Assembly (NCBI GenBank): GCA_025927685.1
Contig: JAICKX010000024.1
Coordinates: 1 to 33,539, forward strand
DNA length: 33,539 bases
Source of the DNA: Thermoleophilia bacterium
GTDB taxonomy: Bacteria; Actinomycetota; Thermoleophilia; Gaiellales; JAICJC01
Direction of reading: 5' to 3'
The position numbers and the translations under genes are program-made. Below the pieces are notes generated by a model. It had not been told where the DNA came from. It saw only the letters and a program-made list of their open reading frames with translations, and made no database searches. Numbering within the stretch: the stretch's first letter is position 1; each line of letters opens with the position of its first letter. This document shows, one piece after another, positions 15,019 through 22,796 of this stretch.

Positions 15019-16014
15019 TCAGCCCTCGTTCGAGGTTGACGGGCTCGTCGCGCCGCGCGCCCGAAGGTGTGGCGCGAGCGGTGCGAGCCGGCGGCCCACG
15101 AGAAGCGCCAGCAGCGCCAGGATCGAGATCGGGATGACCAGCCCGGCGCCGACGATGACGCTCGTCACGACGGCCAGCGCGGCGCCCAGCGAGCGCTCGC
15201 CGGCCTTCCAGATGGCGCTCGCATGCTGCGGCGGGGCCGGCTCCTTGCCCACCTCGTGCAGCGCCACCGTGATGGTCGACATGGACGTGCGGTTCTGTAG
15301 GTAGAGGATGCGGCCCTGCACATCCTCGATCTGGAATTCCACGTTTTGCAGGTAGTTCTCGACGCGAATCGAGTCGGCGATCGTCTGCGCCTGGTCCATC
15401 AACCGCAGGAGCACCTTCTCCTGGGCCTCGAGGTTCACGAGCCGCGCGCGCAGGTCGACGAACTCCTGGCTCACGTCCTGGCCCGTCACGCTCTCGGCGC
15501 TGACGTGGACGTGGGCGATGGCCTCGAGGGCGTTCAGCGCGGCGTTGAACGTCCTGGCGGGGACGCGAATCGTGATCGTGCCGTCGTGGATCCTGGAGCC
15601 CGAGGTCGAGCTGCGGGTCGGGTACCCCCCGAACCGCTGTGCGATATCGCGGACGGCGTGCACCGTCGTGCCGAACTTCCCGTGATCGACGCGCAGGCGG
15701 ACGTCGCCGGTCTTGATCACGGCGGACGGCAGGCTGGGCAGCTTGAGCGGGCCCGACGCCGTGGCCCCGGGCTCCGCGGCGCCGCTGAACGCCTTCGTCT
15801 GCGACGGAGCGGCGGTCGGGCCCAGGGAGTCAAGGGCCATCCCGCCGTTCGCGCCGGCGGCGGCGTGGGCAACGGGCGCCGGCCCGGCGCTCGCTCCGCC
15901 TCCTCCGGCAGCGTTCGATCCTGAGCCCCCCGAGCAGCCCGCGGCCGCCCCCACCAGGCCGGAGACGACGATCATCGCCGCCGGCACCACCCCGAACCGC
16001 CGTATCGCACTCAT
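15019..16014 (-). CDS. DUF4349-family lipoprotein
   Basis: This 331-residue protein has a lipoprotein signal (AAAGC, Cys27) and a long Gly/Ala/Pro-rich linker. A DUF4349 domain runs over about residues 100-270, with KTGDVRLRVDHGKF, VRDIAQRFGGYPTRS, GTITIRVPARTFNAAL and the helix VDLRARLVNLEAQEKVLLRL, which is probably a coiled coil. A C-terminal membrane segment (about 285-315) follows, with a short basic cytoplasmic end. The family is envelope-associated and its biochemical role is not established. ATG 16014 was chosen for its strong GGAGG site. A CCATCG/CGATGG hairpin (16023-16038) overlaps the edge of that site and could tune translation. It is divergent from the FtsH-like gene. Confidence 0.85.
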   Translation of the reverse strand: MSAIRRFGVVPAAMIVVSGLVGAAAGCSGGSGSNAAGGGGASAGPAPVAHAAAGANGGMALDSLGPTAAPSQTKAFSGAAEPGATASGPLKLPSLPSAVIKTGDVRLRVDHGKFGTTVHAVRDIAQRFGGYPTRSSTSGSRIHDGTITIRVPARTFNAALNALEAIAHVHVSAESVTGQDVSQEFVDLRARLVNLEAQEKVLLRLMDQAQTIADSIRVENYLQNVEFQIEDVQGRILYLQNRTSMSTITVALHEVGKEPAPPQHASAIWKAGERSLGAALAVVTSVIVGAGLVIPISILALLALLVGRRLAPLAPHLRARGATSPSTSNEG

Positions 16015-16102
16015 CGAAACCTCCATCGTGGTCGATGGTGAGACAGGCGCCGCGACCGTCCGGTTCCCAATCTGGATGCGGGGTTCGGGCGTACTTCCGG
16101 TA

Positions 16103-16131
16103 TTCCGATGAGCGCAGATCGCTACTACACT
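16103..16131 (+). promoter_or_regulatory. leaderless promoter of the FtsH-like operon
   Basis: TTCCGA (16103-16108) and TACACT (16126-16131) are 17 bases apart. ATG 16138 begins six bases after the -10 hexamer, exactly where transcription should start, and no ribosome site is present. Confidence 0.55.
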
Positions 16132-16137
16132 TAGCCG

Positions 16138-18498
16138 ATGGCGACCGAGACCTTGCCGGCCCCGGCCACCGCGCGCACCGCCGAGTCGCGCCAGCTCGTT
16201 GATCAATGGCGCCGGCTGACGTGGTTTGCGACCGCGACTGCGGTGCTCGGCAGCCCGGCCGTGTTCGTCTGGTACCACTCCGAGGTCGGCTGGTCGACGG
16301 GCTGGTCGCTGGTCGCGACGTTCTTCTCGGTCGTCGCGTTCCGCGGCGTCTTCGACGTCGCCACCCGCCGGCTGATCCCGTGGCCGAATCTCTTCGGCCT
16401 CGAGGATGCGAAGGTCACGACCGAGGACGTCGTCGCACGGCGCCGGGCCTGGTTCTGGCGGTTCTGGCTGAAGCTCGCCATCTACTACGAGGTGATCGTC
16501 ACGCTGATCTGGATCGTCCGCGTCCTGCGCGGCGACCAGGTGTCATGGTGGTCGATCGAGACGGGAGCCGGCTCCGCGATCGCCGGTGTGGCATCCAACC
16601 CGACACTGCTCCTTCAGCTCGTGTACGTCGGGTTCTTCTTCATCGCCAACTTCCTGATCTTCTTCGGCCCGCTCATGCTCATGGGGATCACGCAGATCCA
16701 GGCGTTCGAGCCGGGTGACGCGGACTGGGGCGTCAAGCTCGACGACGTCCGCGGGCAGGCCGAGGCCAAGGAGGAGGTGCGGCGGGTCGTCACCCTGTGG
16801 CAGTCGGGCGAGGAGTTCGAGCGCGCCGGCGGCAAGCGCGAGCGGGGCCTGCTCCTGCTCGGCGCGCCGGGCACGGGCAAGACGATGCTCTCGAAGGCCA
16901 TCGCCACCGGCTTCAACTGCCCGTTCGTCTCGATCCCGGGATCGGGCTTCGCGCAGACCTTCATCGGCATGGATGCGGTCATCGTCCGATACCTCGCCTT
17001 CCGCGCGAAGCGCCTCGCCCGGAAGTGGGGCGGCCAGTGCATCGTCTTCATCGACGAGATCGACGCCGTCGGCATGCGCCGCTCCAGCCTCGGCGGACAG
17101 GGCTTCTTCCAGCCCGCCGGCGAGGTCGCCGTCCCGAGCGGGGACGTGATCCTGGAGAACGAGGAGTGGCGCGAACGGGTCTTCGCCGAGCGGGCGCCGG
17201 AGCGGCCTGCGCGTTTCCCCGCCCAGATCGGGTCGGCGGTGAACCGGGTCTTCCCCGGCATGTTCGGGGGCGGCGGCCAGCTGGCGCTGAACCAGCTCCT
17301 CGTCATCATGGACGGCATCGGGAACCCGCCGTTCGTGCGAAAGACGCTCACCAACCGCATGAACACGTTCCTCGATGCGACCTACGTCATCCCGCAGCGA
17401 ATCGGACGGCTCCGGCTCCGGCTTCGGCGCCCCGGCCCGCGGCGCGAGCAGATCTATTTCATCGGGGCCTGCAACGTGCCCATCGAGTCGCTCGACCCGG
17501 CGCTGACACGCCCCGGCCGCATGGGCCGTCACGTGTGGTTCCGCACGCCCACGAAGGATGACCGCAAGGACATCTTCGACCTGTACCTGGGCAAGATCGC
17601 GCACGAGGAGGATCTGGAGACCGAGGAGCGCAAGGACGAGCTCGCCCGGATCACCAACGGCTACTCCCCCGCGATGATCGAGCAGGTCTGTTCGATGGGC
17701 CTCATGCGGGCCCATTTCGACGGGCGTGAGAGCTGCGCGCGCGAGGACATCGTCGAGTCGCTCACGACCGTCGAGTCCGGTACGGCTATCGACGTCGAGT
17801 ACGTCCCCGAGGAGACCCTCGCGACCGCGATCCACGAGGCCGGCCACGCGGCGGCCAGCCATGTGTACAACCTCGGCTACGAGTCGACGCGGCTCTCGGT
17901 GCGCATGCGCGGCGGGTCGCTCGGCCACTACCAGGCCGCGCAGAAGGAGGAGCGGTTCGGCAAGTGGCGGCACGAGATGGTCGCCCGGCTGATCGTGCTG
18001 CTCGGGGCGATGGCCGCCGAGAGGGTGTTCTACAACGAGAACACGAACGGCGTGGGCGGCGACGTACGCAGCGTGACCGCCGAGGTCTCCCGCATGGTCG
18101 GACAGGCCGCGATGGGCCCCGAGGAGCCCGAGCTGCCCGCCTGGCTGCCGGAGGACGAACGCGAGGCCCAGAGCGAGCGGATCATGAAGCGCTACGAGCG
18201 GATCGGCACCCAGATCATGAACCGCGCCCGGTCGGGCTCCGCCATGGACGCCGACCCGCTCGGAGCCGCCCTGTCGGATCCCGCCAAGCGGAAGATGGCC
18301 GCCCAGATCCTGGGCCAGGCGTACGTCACCGCGCATCACCTGATCCGCGAAAACCGCGATGCGGTCGAGCACATCGCGAACGTGCTGGTCGAGCGGCGCG
18401 AGATGTACGGCGACGAGGTCGTGACGCTCCTCGAGGACGCCAGCCTGCGCCGGCCCGACTTCGATCCGCTCCGGGAAGAGCTTTGGCCCGCCGCGTGA
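16138..18498 (+). CDS. divergent FtsH-like AAA+ membrane protease (M41)
   Basis: This 786-residue protein has about four N-terminal membrane segments (about 29-46, 54-70, 112-130, 158-186), where FtsH usually has two. The AAA domain has Walker A GAPGTGKT (242-249), a pore-loop-like FAQTFIGMDA (271-280), Walker B VFIDEID (303-309) and arginine-finger positions R458 and R461 in TRPGRMGR. The M41 protease domain has HEAGH (566-570; E567 catalytic) and a likely third zinc ligand D642 in GVGGDVRS. Two stretches interrupt the usual AAA core: about 50 extra residues after Walker B (about 320-375) and a basic insert of about 40 (394-437) before the sensor-1-like IYFIGACN. It should pull and degrade membrane or soluble proteins. 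The stop overlaps the next start (GTGA). Confidence 0.85.
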   Translation: MATETLPAPATARTAESRQLVDQWRRLTWFATATAVLGSPAVFVWYHSEVGWSTGWSLVATFFSVVAFRGVFDVATRRLIPWPNLFGLEDAKVTTEDVVARRRAWFWRFWLKLAIYYEVIVTLIWIVRVLRGDQVSWWSIETGAGSAIAGVASNPTLLLQLVYVGFFFIANFLIFFGPLMLMGITQIQAFEPGDADWGVKLDDVRGQAEAKEEVRRVVTLWQSGEEFERAGGKRERGLLLLGAPGTGKTMLSKAIATGFNCPFVSIPGSGFAQTFIGMDAVIVRYLAFRAKRLARKWGGQCIVFIDEIDAVGMRRSSLGGQGFFQPAGEVAVPSGDVILENEEWRERVFAERAPERPARFPAQIGSAVNRVFPGMFGGGGQLALNQLLVIMDGIGNPPFVRKTLTNRMNTFLDATYVIPQRIGRLRLRLRRPGPRREQIYFIGACNVPIESLDPALTRPGRMGRHVWFRTPTKDDRKDIFDLYLGKIAHEEDLETEERKDELARITNGYSPAMIEQVCSMGLMRAHFDGRESCAREDIVESLTTVESGTAIDVEYVPEETLATAIHEAGHAAASHVYNLGYESTRLSVRMRGGSLGHYQAAQKEERFGKWRHEMVARLIVLLGAMAAERVFYNENTNGVGGDVRSVTAEVSRMVGQAAMGPEEPELPAWLPEDEREAQSERIMKRYERIGTQIMNRARSGSAMDADPLGAALSDPAKRKMAAQILGQAYVTAHHLIRENRDAVEHIANVLVERREMYGDEVVTLLEDASLRRPDFDPLREELWPAA

Positions 18499-19259
18499 GC
18501 CCGCATTCGGGAAAGTTCGGGCTGGCGTACGCGGCTCTCGGAGCAGCTGCGGTCATCGCGATCGGGGCGTTCGTGATCCTGCTCGGCCGCTCGTCGGACG
18601 CCACCACCACCCCGGCGGCGGCCGACGCGACATGGGGCAACTTCCGGCCCGCCGGCCTGACCCAGGACCGGATCCAGCAGATCGCCCTGCACGTCGGCTC
18701 GACGTACCGCACCAAGACCGACCACCAGCTCGTCTCCGTGAGCGCCTCGATCCCTCCGGTCTACCAGAACGACCTCAAGATCACCCAGTACGTCCTGTCG
18801 TACAACGACGGCGGCCAGACGAACTACCAGGCCGTGCCGATCGGGGCGAACAACGTCCTCTACGAGATGTGCGGCCTCGGGCCGCAGTGCGCGATCCGGA
18901 CAGGCAAGGCCAGCACGGCACGCTTCCGGCTTCTGCGCCGCGAGGCGCTCGAGCTGGCGCTGTACACGTTCCACTACACGGACGTGGGCTCGGTCGTGAC
19001 GTTCCTGCCGCCCAAGAAGGGCGAGCGGCCGCAGTTCGTGTTCCTCTTCCTGCGGTCGCAGTTCGAGGAGCAGGGCATCCTGGCGAAGCCGCTCGGCGCG
19101 ATCCTCGCCGAGCCGACGCCGCCGGCCGCCGCGGCGATGTCGGCCGCCGAGGCGGCCACGATCGACGGGATCACCGAGCCCGACCTGTATCGCTTCCGGT
19201 ACACGTCCGACCAGCAGGGCGGCGTCCTGCTCGTGTTCGACCCGCTGGCCGGCCAGTAG
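18495..19259 (+). CDS. single-TM protein coupled to the FtsH-like protease, unknown function
   Basis: I do not recognise this 254-residue protein. It has a short N-terminus, one membrane segment (about 9-31) and a soluble domain of about 215 residues, probably extracytoplasmic. The domain opens with an Ala/Thr/Pro linker, has two cysteines in MCGLGPQCA that could form a disulfide, and a helical region followed by strands such as QFVFLFLRSQFEEQG. GTG 18495 overlaps the protease stop by four bases (GTGA), so the two are made together, and a partner, adaptor or substrate-regulator role (as HflK/HflC have for FtsH) is an inference from context only. The next gene starts five bases after its stop. 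Confidence 0.75.
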   Translation: MSPHSGKFGLAYAALGAAAVIAIGAFVILLGRSSDATTTPAAADATWGNFRPAGLTQDRIQQIALHVGSTYRTKTDHQLVSVSASIPPVYQNDLKITQYVLSYNDGGQTNYQAVPIGANNVLYEMCGLGPQCAIRTGKASTARFRLLRREALELALYTFHYTDVGSVVTFLPPKKGERPQFVFLFLRSQFEEQGILAKPLGAILAEPTPPAAAAMSAAEAATIDGITEPDLYRFRYTSDQQGGVLLVFDPLAGQ

Positions 19260-19263
19260 CCGC

Positions 19264-19641
19264 ATGACCCCGACCACCCGCGCGGCGCTCGAGCGTGCCC
19301 GGGCCCGGCTCGACACCCTCGACTACTACCCGCGCCCTGTGCGCATCGCCCGGGTGCGCGTGATCGTCGCGCCGCTCCTCTTCCGCCTGCCGTGGTTTTC
19401 GAGCTTCGACGGCTATGCGACCCACCTGGCGATCTTCCTGCGCCGGCCGGTGGCGGGCGGCGAGCAGGACGACCTGGTGACGCACGAGCTCTGCCATGTG
19501 TGGCAGATGCAGCACCGGCCGCTCGCCATGCCGTTCTCGTACGTCGTCCGCGGGTACGCGCGAAACCCGTACGAGGTGGAGGCCCGGCGAGCGGCCGATG
19601 AGACCCGGGCTGCGGTCAGACCCGAGCCGGGACCTGCATGA
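19264..19641 (+). CDS. small HExxH protein, putative minimal zinc metallopeptidase
   Basis: This 125-residue protein has a zinc-protease signature: VTHELCHVWQMQH (H74, E75, H78) and, about 25 residues later, NPYEVEARRA, whose glutamate (E104 or E106) could be the third ligand of a gluzincin-type site. There is no signal peptide; a hydrophobic patch VRVIVAPLLFRLPWF precedes the site. It is the third gene of the tight unit with the FtsH-like protease (four bases between stop and start). It could be a peptidase or a zinc-binding structural protein. Its last 26 bases overlap the convergent YciI gene. Confidence 0.7.
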   Translation: MTPTTRAALERARARLDTLDYYPRPVRIARVRVIVAPLLFRLPWFSSFDGYATHLAIFLRRPVAGGEQDDLVTHELCHVWQMQHRPLAMPFSYVVRGYARNPYEVEARRAADETRAAVRPEPGPA

Positions 19642-21566: not shown

Positions 21567-22796
21567 CTACTGCCGCAGCGAGGCCAGCACGGCCAGGACG
21601 CGGCGGTGGTCCTCGGAGGCGGCCGGGAGGCCGAGCTTGGCGAAGATCGACGTCACGTGCTTCTCGACGGCCCGCTCGGTGACGACCATCCGCAGGGCGA
21701 TGCCGGCGTTCGAGCGGCCCTCCGCCATGAGCGAGAGCACCTCCCGCTCGCGCGGCGTGAGCTGGTCGAGCGGGTCGTCGGAGCGGCGCCGGCCGACGAG
21801 CTGGGCCACGACCGCCGGGTCGAGCGCGGAGCCGCCCTGGGCCACGCGCCGCACCGCCGCGGCGAAGTCGTCGACGTCCGCCACCCGGTCCTTCAGCAGG
21901 TAGCCGACGCCCTCGGTGTTCTCGCCGAGGAGCTCGACGGCGTAGCCGGGCTCGACGTAGGACGACAGCACGAGCACGCCGACGCCCGGGAACCGCTCCC
22001 GGATCGCGCGAGCCGCCTGGAGCCCCTCGTCCGTGTTCGTCGGCGGCATGCGGATGTCGACGATCGCGACATCGGGTTTTGAGAAGCCGATCCGGCGCAG
22101 GAGGTCGTCGGCGTTTGCGACCTGGCCGACCACCTCGAAGTCCGCCTCCGACAGGATGCGCGCCACACCCTCGCGGAGGAGCACCGAGTCGTCGGCCAGC
22201 ACCACGCGGATCGGGGTGCCCGCCGCCCGCCCGGTCGTGTTCAGCGCCGGGAAGGTCGTGTCGAGCCCGGCGACGTCGAGCTGGTGGAGGTGCTCGGGCC
22301 GGTCGAGATCCTTCAGATGGGCGTCACCGAGCTCGCGGGTGCTCGTCCCGTCGGGCAGGTCGCCCTCGAGCAGCGCGTGGGTGGTGTTCGACAGCAGCAC
22401 CTGGCCGCCGTGGCCCGCGTCGCAGATGCGGGCCGCCCGGTGCACGTCGAGGCCCACGTAGCGCTCCTCGGCGATGACCGGCTCGCCGGTGTGGATGCCC
22501 ATCCGCACCCGCACCTCGGCGCCGTCGGGCCAGTCATGGCCGGAGAGGCTGCGCTGGGCGTCGGCGGCGGCGGCGACCGACTCGCGCGCCGCCCGGAACA
22601 CCCAGAACGTCGAATCGCCCTGGGTGTCGACCTCCTCGCCGTTGTGGCGGCCGAAGGCCGCGCGCAGGAGGTCCTGGTGCTGCGACATGACGGCCGCGTA
22701 CCCGTCCCGAAGCTTGTTCACGAGCCGGGTCGAGCCCTCGATGTCGGTGAACAGGAAGGTGACGGTGCCGGTGGGGAGCTGCCGGGACGCGGCCAT
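21567..22796 (-). CDS. class III cyclase-domain / receiver / LuxR-HTH fusion regulator
   Basis: This 409-residue protein joins three modules. Residues about 8-175 form a class III nucleotide cyclase domain, with metal-binding D18 (FTDIEGST) and D61 (QGDSTFWVF) and R123. The residue that usually selects the base is Asp57 instead of Lys, and the transition-state Asn is His119 (GLDVHRAAR), so cyclase activity is doubtful. Residues about 195-315 form a receiver (ADD near 200, phosphoacceptor D247, K302). Residues 344-405 form a NarL/LuxR helix-turn-helix with LTPREREVLSLMAEG. It should be a DNA-binding regulator with a nucleotide-sensing or degenerate cyclase front end. It lies downstream of the transporter and the orphan-receiver/kinase pair on the same strand and could be their output. 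Confidence 0.88.
   Translation of the reverse strand: MAASRQLPTGTVTFLFTDIEGSTRLVNKLRDGYAAVMSQHQDLLRAAFGRHNGEEVDTQGDSTFWVFRAARESVAAAADAQRSLSGHDWPDGAEVRVRMGIHTGEPVIAEERYVGLDVHRAARICDAGHGGQVLLSNTTHALLEGDLPDGTSTRELGDAHLKDLDRPEHLHQLDVAGLDTTFPALNTTGRAAGTPIRVVLADDSVLLREGVARILSEADFEVVGQVANADDLLRRIGFSKPDVAIVDIRMPPTNTDEGLQAARAIRERFPGVGVLVLSSYVEPGYAVELLGENTEGVGYLLKDRVADVDDFAAAVRRVAQGGSALDPAVVAQLVGRRRSDDPLDQLTPREREVLSLMAEGRSNAGIALRMVVTERAVEKHVTSIFAKLGLPAASEDHRRVLAVLASLRQ

Follow-up and report, generated by a model that had tools for sequence, protein, structure and literature searches.

An FtsH-like AAA+/M41 protein and its paired membrane protein in Thermoleophilia as a candidate two-component protease

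The window, that is, the whole stretch of 33,539 nucleotides of Thermoleophilia DNA that was analysed, carries two adjoining genes, ORF1 and ORF2, which form a near-obligate pair. The reading favoured here, to which a probability of roughly 55% is given, is that their products constitute a two-component, ATP-driven zinc membrane protease of the FtsH (M41) superfamily, with ORF2 supplying the domain outside the cytoplasm. FtsH itself is nearly universal and works as a hexameric ring under the membrane, where substrates are unfolded at the expense of ATP and cleaved at a zinc site. The evidence on ORF1 and ORF2 is suggestive of a dedicated system of protein destruction that had not been described before.

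Layout, pairing and distribution of the genes

The locus comprises a short promoter-like box and three codirectional genes:

16126..16131, + strand: TACACT, a –10-like box and leaderless promoter candidate, 6 nt 5′ of the ATG
16138..18498, + strand: ORF1, AAA+/M41 zinc protease homologue of 786 aa with a four-helix membrane region (Pfam, PDB fold search)
18495..19259, + strand: ORF2, partner protein of 254 aa with one N-terminal transmembrane (TM) helix and a domain of about 210 aa
19264..19641, + strand: ORF3, HExxH protein of 125 aa, optional third gene (HELCH at residues 74-78, E104)

The fusion of ORF1 and ORF2 by a GTGA overlap and the four-base gap before ORF3, both described in the initial annotation, were borne out by the coordinates. 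The ORF1 and ORF2 frames overlapped in 44 of 46 loci, counted from the nearest start codon, so that exact overlap lengths are approximate. In a survey of 399 genomes of the class, many of them drafts, 78 harbored both genes, 317 neither, and only four a single one, these exceptions including contig-end fragments. Each gene was found in 80 of the 399 genomes, ORF1 showing a patchy distribution (~20%), and the co-occurrence was highly significant when shared ancestry was ignored (p = 5e-78). Outside the class, no ORF1 match was recovered from the phylum sample at E 1e-70. Some ORF1 orthologues were split into two matches (L067 at G039:C97, and those of G202, G300 and G232), the halves of L067 lying in different frames, and these would be pseudogenes or assembly errors.

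Of 48 orthologous loci, 34 had a box of the form TA[CGA][AC]CT 6-14 nt 5′ of a start codon, compared with 0.35% of background (random) placements; the figure is descriptive, as the motif was picked post hoc. Start codons close to the ORF1 start were considered, each with the 20 nt preceding it. The recurrence of this TACACT-type box supports a putative leaderless promoter for the ORF1 transcript, which favours the leaderless transcript proposed earlier, although such a transcript is not provable from DNA. Divergently from ORF1 lies a gene for a DUF4349 protein (15019-16278, – strand), whose longest ORF crosses the ORF1 start, and its true start is therefore probably placed further downstream. 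Elsewhere in the window (21567-22796, – strand), one ORF combines adenylate/guanylate cyclase, response-regulator receiver and LuxR-type DNA-binding domains.

The third gene behaved differently from the pair. ORF3 adjoined ORF1-ORF2 in 19 of 46 loci, and 13 of the 48 ORF3-bearing genomes had no ORF1. Moreover, in one genome (G011) FtsK and a small membrane protein are followed by ORF1, ORF2 and ORF3, and another (G030, locus L064 on G030:C131) preserved FtsK, the small membrane protein and ORF3 and lacked exactly the ORF1-ORF2 pair, representing a natural empty site. A role of ORF3 as an essential third subunit was rejected on these grounds. The proposal of a three-gene unit with two zinc proteases consequently found no support in that form, as most of the loci had no ORF3 and the gene also occurred without ORF1; from the conserved neighbourhood once envisaged, the contiguous and co-occurring ORF1 and ORF2 remained, and the inconstant ORF3 dropped out. 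On gene content, the pair appears to be the unit and ORF3 an optional accessory. In ORF3 orthologues, H74, E75, H78 and the downstream E104, a possible third ligand, were invariant, and the comparison with named families gave only sub-threshold Pfam matches (DUF6782, 16.6 bits with a cut-off of 27; YgjP-like, 13.8 with 26; eCIS_core, 12.8 with 22).

Predicted architecture of ORF1 and ORF2

The features recognized in the two proteins, all on the + strand, are the following:

16216..16707, +: ORF1 membrane region, approximately residues 27-190, four helices with short external loops (hydropathy, AF2)
16861..16884, +: ORF1 Walker A, GAPGTGKT, residues 242-249 (invariant except for A243, which is P in two orthologues)
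17041..17064, +: ORF1 Walker B, IVFIDEID, residues 302-309 (invariant in the orthologue alignment)
17092..17271, +: ORF1 insert 1, approximately residues 319-378, at the place of FtsH pore loop 2 (Walker B to RPGR spacing, model)
17317..17448, +: ORF1 insert 2, approximately residues 394-437, flanked by the MDG-terminated helix and the sensor-1 strand (spacing)
17518..17529, +: ORF1 SRH arginine fingers R461 and R464 (RMGR), invariant
17833..17847, +: ORF1 HEAGH zinc site, residues 566-570, invariant
18061..18063, +: ORF1 D642, third zinc ligand position, invariant and aligned with the FtsH Asp
18531..18587, +: ORF2 TM helix, residues 13-31 (hydropathy)
18870..18890, +: ORF2 C126 to C132 (CGLGPQC), both cysteines invariant (orthologue alignment)

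ORF1 matched the Pfam families AAA (77.6 bits, cut-off 21.2) and Peptidase_M41 (PF01434; 69.2 bits, cut-off 29.9), and the PDB fold search performed with its AF2 model returned FtsH and m-AAA structures as the best matches. The residues expected to be decisive for ATP hydrolysis and zinc binding (K248, T249, D306, E307, R461, R464, H566, E567, H570 and D642) were invariant across 11 orthologues, confirming the earlier reading that Walker A and B, the arginine fingers, HEAGH and the third zinc ligand were all kept. This conservation rules out, as far as motifs can tell, a catalytically dead motor.

The two inserts noticed within the AAA core were also corroborated, since 156 residues separate Walker B from RPGR in ORF1 and 156-172 in its bacterial orthologues, against 60-63 in ordinary FtsH (two proteins of this genome and three of other origin). 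Judged by this spacing, the inserts are genuine and lineage-specific. In the AF2 model, which was built on a shallow alignment of phage and distant FtsH rows, mean pLDDT was 76, with low values for insert 1 (~29-55) and intermediate ones for insert 2 (63-70). Insert 1, lying where FtsH has pore loop 2, probably tunes substrate engagement.

The hydropathy scan gave four peaks in ORF1, most orthologues having three or four, and the AF2 model placed long N-terminal helices at residues 10-50, 54-79, 91-130 and 155-184, in agreement with the four apparent TM helices initially annotated, a topology that rests on hydropathy and the shallow alignment. As these four helices are joined by only short external loops, ORF1 appears to be devoid of the extracytoplasmic domain typical of FtsH, and it would therefore probably depend on ORF2.

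For ORF2, no relatives were found in Pfam, NCBIfam or PDB, searched singly and as a profile; neither ORF2 nor its orthologues presented an SPFH (Band 7) domain or any Pfam family at useful E-values. The single-sequence structure model had a mean pLDDT of 35 and was not used. The orthologues share a positively charged N-terminus and a conserved core motif, LLRREALELALYTF. The positive N-terminus, the single TM helix and the invariant cysteine pair together place the main domain of ORF2, by prediction, outside the cytoplasm.

Taken together, these features are compatible with a mechanism in which ORF1 would assemble as a membrane-anchored hexamer, use ATP hydrolysis to thread substrates through its pore, and cleave these at a zinc site facing the cytoplasm. 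ORF2, which would be produced by translational coupling with ORF1 and be inserted N-in/C-out, would complex with this hexamer and provide its external domain, serving as substrate receptor, gate or regulator. What the analysis shows is the gene pairing, the intact motifs, the predicted fold, the separate clade and the recurrent promoter box; the hexamer, its complex with ORF2, the roles of ORF2 and of the inserts, the substrates and the proteolytic function are inferred.

A receptor, gate or regulator is the role that fits ORF2 best, though it could instead be one of the substrates, or a co-regulated protein with no connection to the protease. The main rival proposes that ORF2 is a dedicated substrate or labile inhibitor of ORF1, the regulated removal of which would be the output of the system. 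The strict pairing and the translational coupling would suit such an arrangement, as would the faster evolution of ORF2, whose orthologues preserve 29-52% identity to the window copy compared with 55-63% for ORF1; nevertheless, the core motif and the paired cysteines have the look of structural elements and not of a degron, and a substrate role is considered rather unlikely.

Relation to housekeeping FtsH and to phage homologues

In addition to ORF1, the genome encodes three other M41/FtsH proteins. Against TIGR01241, the NCBIfam FtsH equivalog with a cut-off of 600 bits, one of them (L236) scored 717.8 bits and the second 598, and the third was truncated by a contig end; ORF1 reached 228.1 bits. 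Genomes of this group usually give several FtsH-like matches, and a scan of the genome_contigs set returned mostly ordinary FtsH. The presence of these three genes indicates that ORF1 is an addition rather than the housekeeping copy. Moreover, the trees separated the ORF1 family from all canonical FtsH rows with 100/100 support, with long branches that call for caution in any finer reading of its placement. The distinction from housekeeping FtsH drawn in the initial annotation is thus upheld by the three additional genes (two of them full-length and without inserts), by the separate clade and by the ORF1/ORF2 pairing; the canonical ftsH sought in the same genome was present, and the inserts were not common to ordinary FtsH.

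It could still be argued that ORF1 is a divergent extra FtsH engaged in ordinary membrane-protein quality control and that ORF2 is only a co-transcribed envelope protein, given that the catalytic machinery of ORF1 is the same as that of FtsH and that multiple FtsH-like matches per genome are common in the group. This explanation is regarded as unlikely in view of the near-perfect co-occurrence and joint absence of ORF1 and ORF2 (as in G030), a score far under the equivalog cut-off (228 of 600 bits) and a patchy presence in ~20% of the class genomes, unlike a housekeeping enzyme.

Relatives of ORF1 also occur in phages. Pattern and profile searches revealed four IMG/VR phage contigs with an ORF1-like protease of ~50% identity, and these proteases clustered in the tree with the bacterial ORF1 family. 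Insert 1 was missing in three of them, and insert 2 was present in the phage copies in a divergent form. The contigs also carried phage genes, namely Sak4-like, exonuclease, RNase H and head protein genes, the last on L269, where a 1621-aa product (L269:11635-16497, – strand) gave minor head, ADP-ribosyltransferase and head-protease matches and has a HEAGH of its own. Four small membrane proteins (a-d) form a module on these contigs:

L266:11845-13825, module a-d
L267:8783-10747, module a-d
L269:5983-7944, module a-d (d not separately identified; the space from c to the protease gene is of a suitable length)
L265:1797-3734, module a-d

The module was placed directly 5′ of the protease gene in three of the four contigs and ~5 kb away in the fourth (G759). 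Protein a of G758 belonged to the MotA/ExbB family, above the cut-off, and protein b, with an Asp in its single TM helix and a PPC-like domain, recalls ExbD/TolR. Relatives of b, annotated as hypothetical, were found in the Rhizobium phages MN988527.1 (L273) and MN988486.1 (L274), adjoined by small hypothetical genes, with no FtsH gene nearby. The module was present in none of the bacterial ORF1 loci, and ORF2 was not found beside the phage homologues, three of the four contigs being cut or incomplete. This lack counts against the two-component reading, in that ORF1 may work alone or with another partner. A kinship of ORF2 with phage proteins c or d was rejected, as hhalign gave no match and a weak G759 hit spanned the TM region only. 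On L265, the end of the protease gene is overlapped by a gene for a 110-aa HEVYH protein (L265:8192-8521, – strand) without family match, which, compared by reading, seems to echo the bacterial HExxH neighbour.

A bolder scheme, which is deemed improbable, would regard the bacterial pair as a split FtsH with ORF2 as its obligate outside subunit, the phage motor having instead a MotA/ExbB-like proton-driven channel and thereby becoming a membrane-protein extraction machine powered by ATP together with the proton gradient.

A derivation of the window copy from a prophage or a plasmid was discarded: none of the neighbours tested was a phage gene, and plasmid matches were lacking. Least probable of all is that the locus is a mobile or phage-related module, in which a phage protease for counter-defence or host take-over was domesticated by bacteria, or vice versa. 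The clade members on the four phage contigs (three directly behind the MotA/ExbB-like quartet) and the patchy bacterial distribution may speak for it; against it stand the lack of phage genes among the neighbours tested in the window and among the recurrent neighbours, a PADLOC search in which ORF1 matched defence systems only through its AAA part (IetA/TRIP13) and ORF2 and ORF3 not at all, and a pairing with ORF2 seen only in bacteria.

The two-component protease is thus retained as the preferred reading. An FtsH-like variant without an outside domain and with a near-obligate partner would offer a clean two-protein system for tests of substrate selection, and the phage-borne copies suggest that a similar machine is useful during infection.

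Comparison with known systems

FtsH (TIGR01241; MEROPS M41; PDB 2ce7, 3kds) shares with ORF1 the AAA-M41 order, Walker A and B, the SRH arginines, the zinc site formed by HEAGH and Asp, and a membrane anchor. ORF1 differs in having four helices where FtsH has two, in lacking an extracytoplasmic domain of appreciable size, and in its pair of AAA-core inserts, its near-obligate partner gene and its score of 228 bits against the cut-off of 600.

A complex of FtsH with HflK/HflC is described in PMC12048511, and it resembles the proposed system in joining an AAA/M41 membrane protease to separate membrane proteins with domains outside the cytoplasm. Unlike HflK/HflC, ORF2 presented no detectable SPFH domain, and its gene overlaps that of the protease.

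Another FtsH-like family, here called the X clade, was found in 74 of 297 genomes from other classes of the phylum (L068, L218-L235) and neighbours the ORF1 family in the trees, both being split from ordinary FtsH with full support; L067, labelled X in one tree, is a frame-broken member of the ORF1 family. Members such as L068, titled Cellulomonas sp. 73-92, share with ORF1 the short external loops and a long Walker B to RPGR distance (100-117 residues), but they have two helices, a shorter insert 1 and a divergent form of insert 2. ORF2 and ORF3 were not found alongside X clade loci, and no recurrent neighbour was seen. Literature searches gave no description of the X clade or of the ORF1 family, such absence being weak evidence.

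Finally, the chloroplast FtsHi-Ycf2 motor (PDB 8xku) resembles ORF1 in fold and as an FtsH-like motor with a specialised membrane role. The FtsHi subunits are named probable inactive proteases, whereas the zinc site of ORF1 is invariant.
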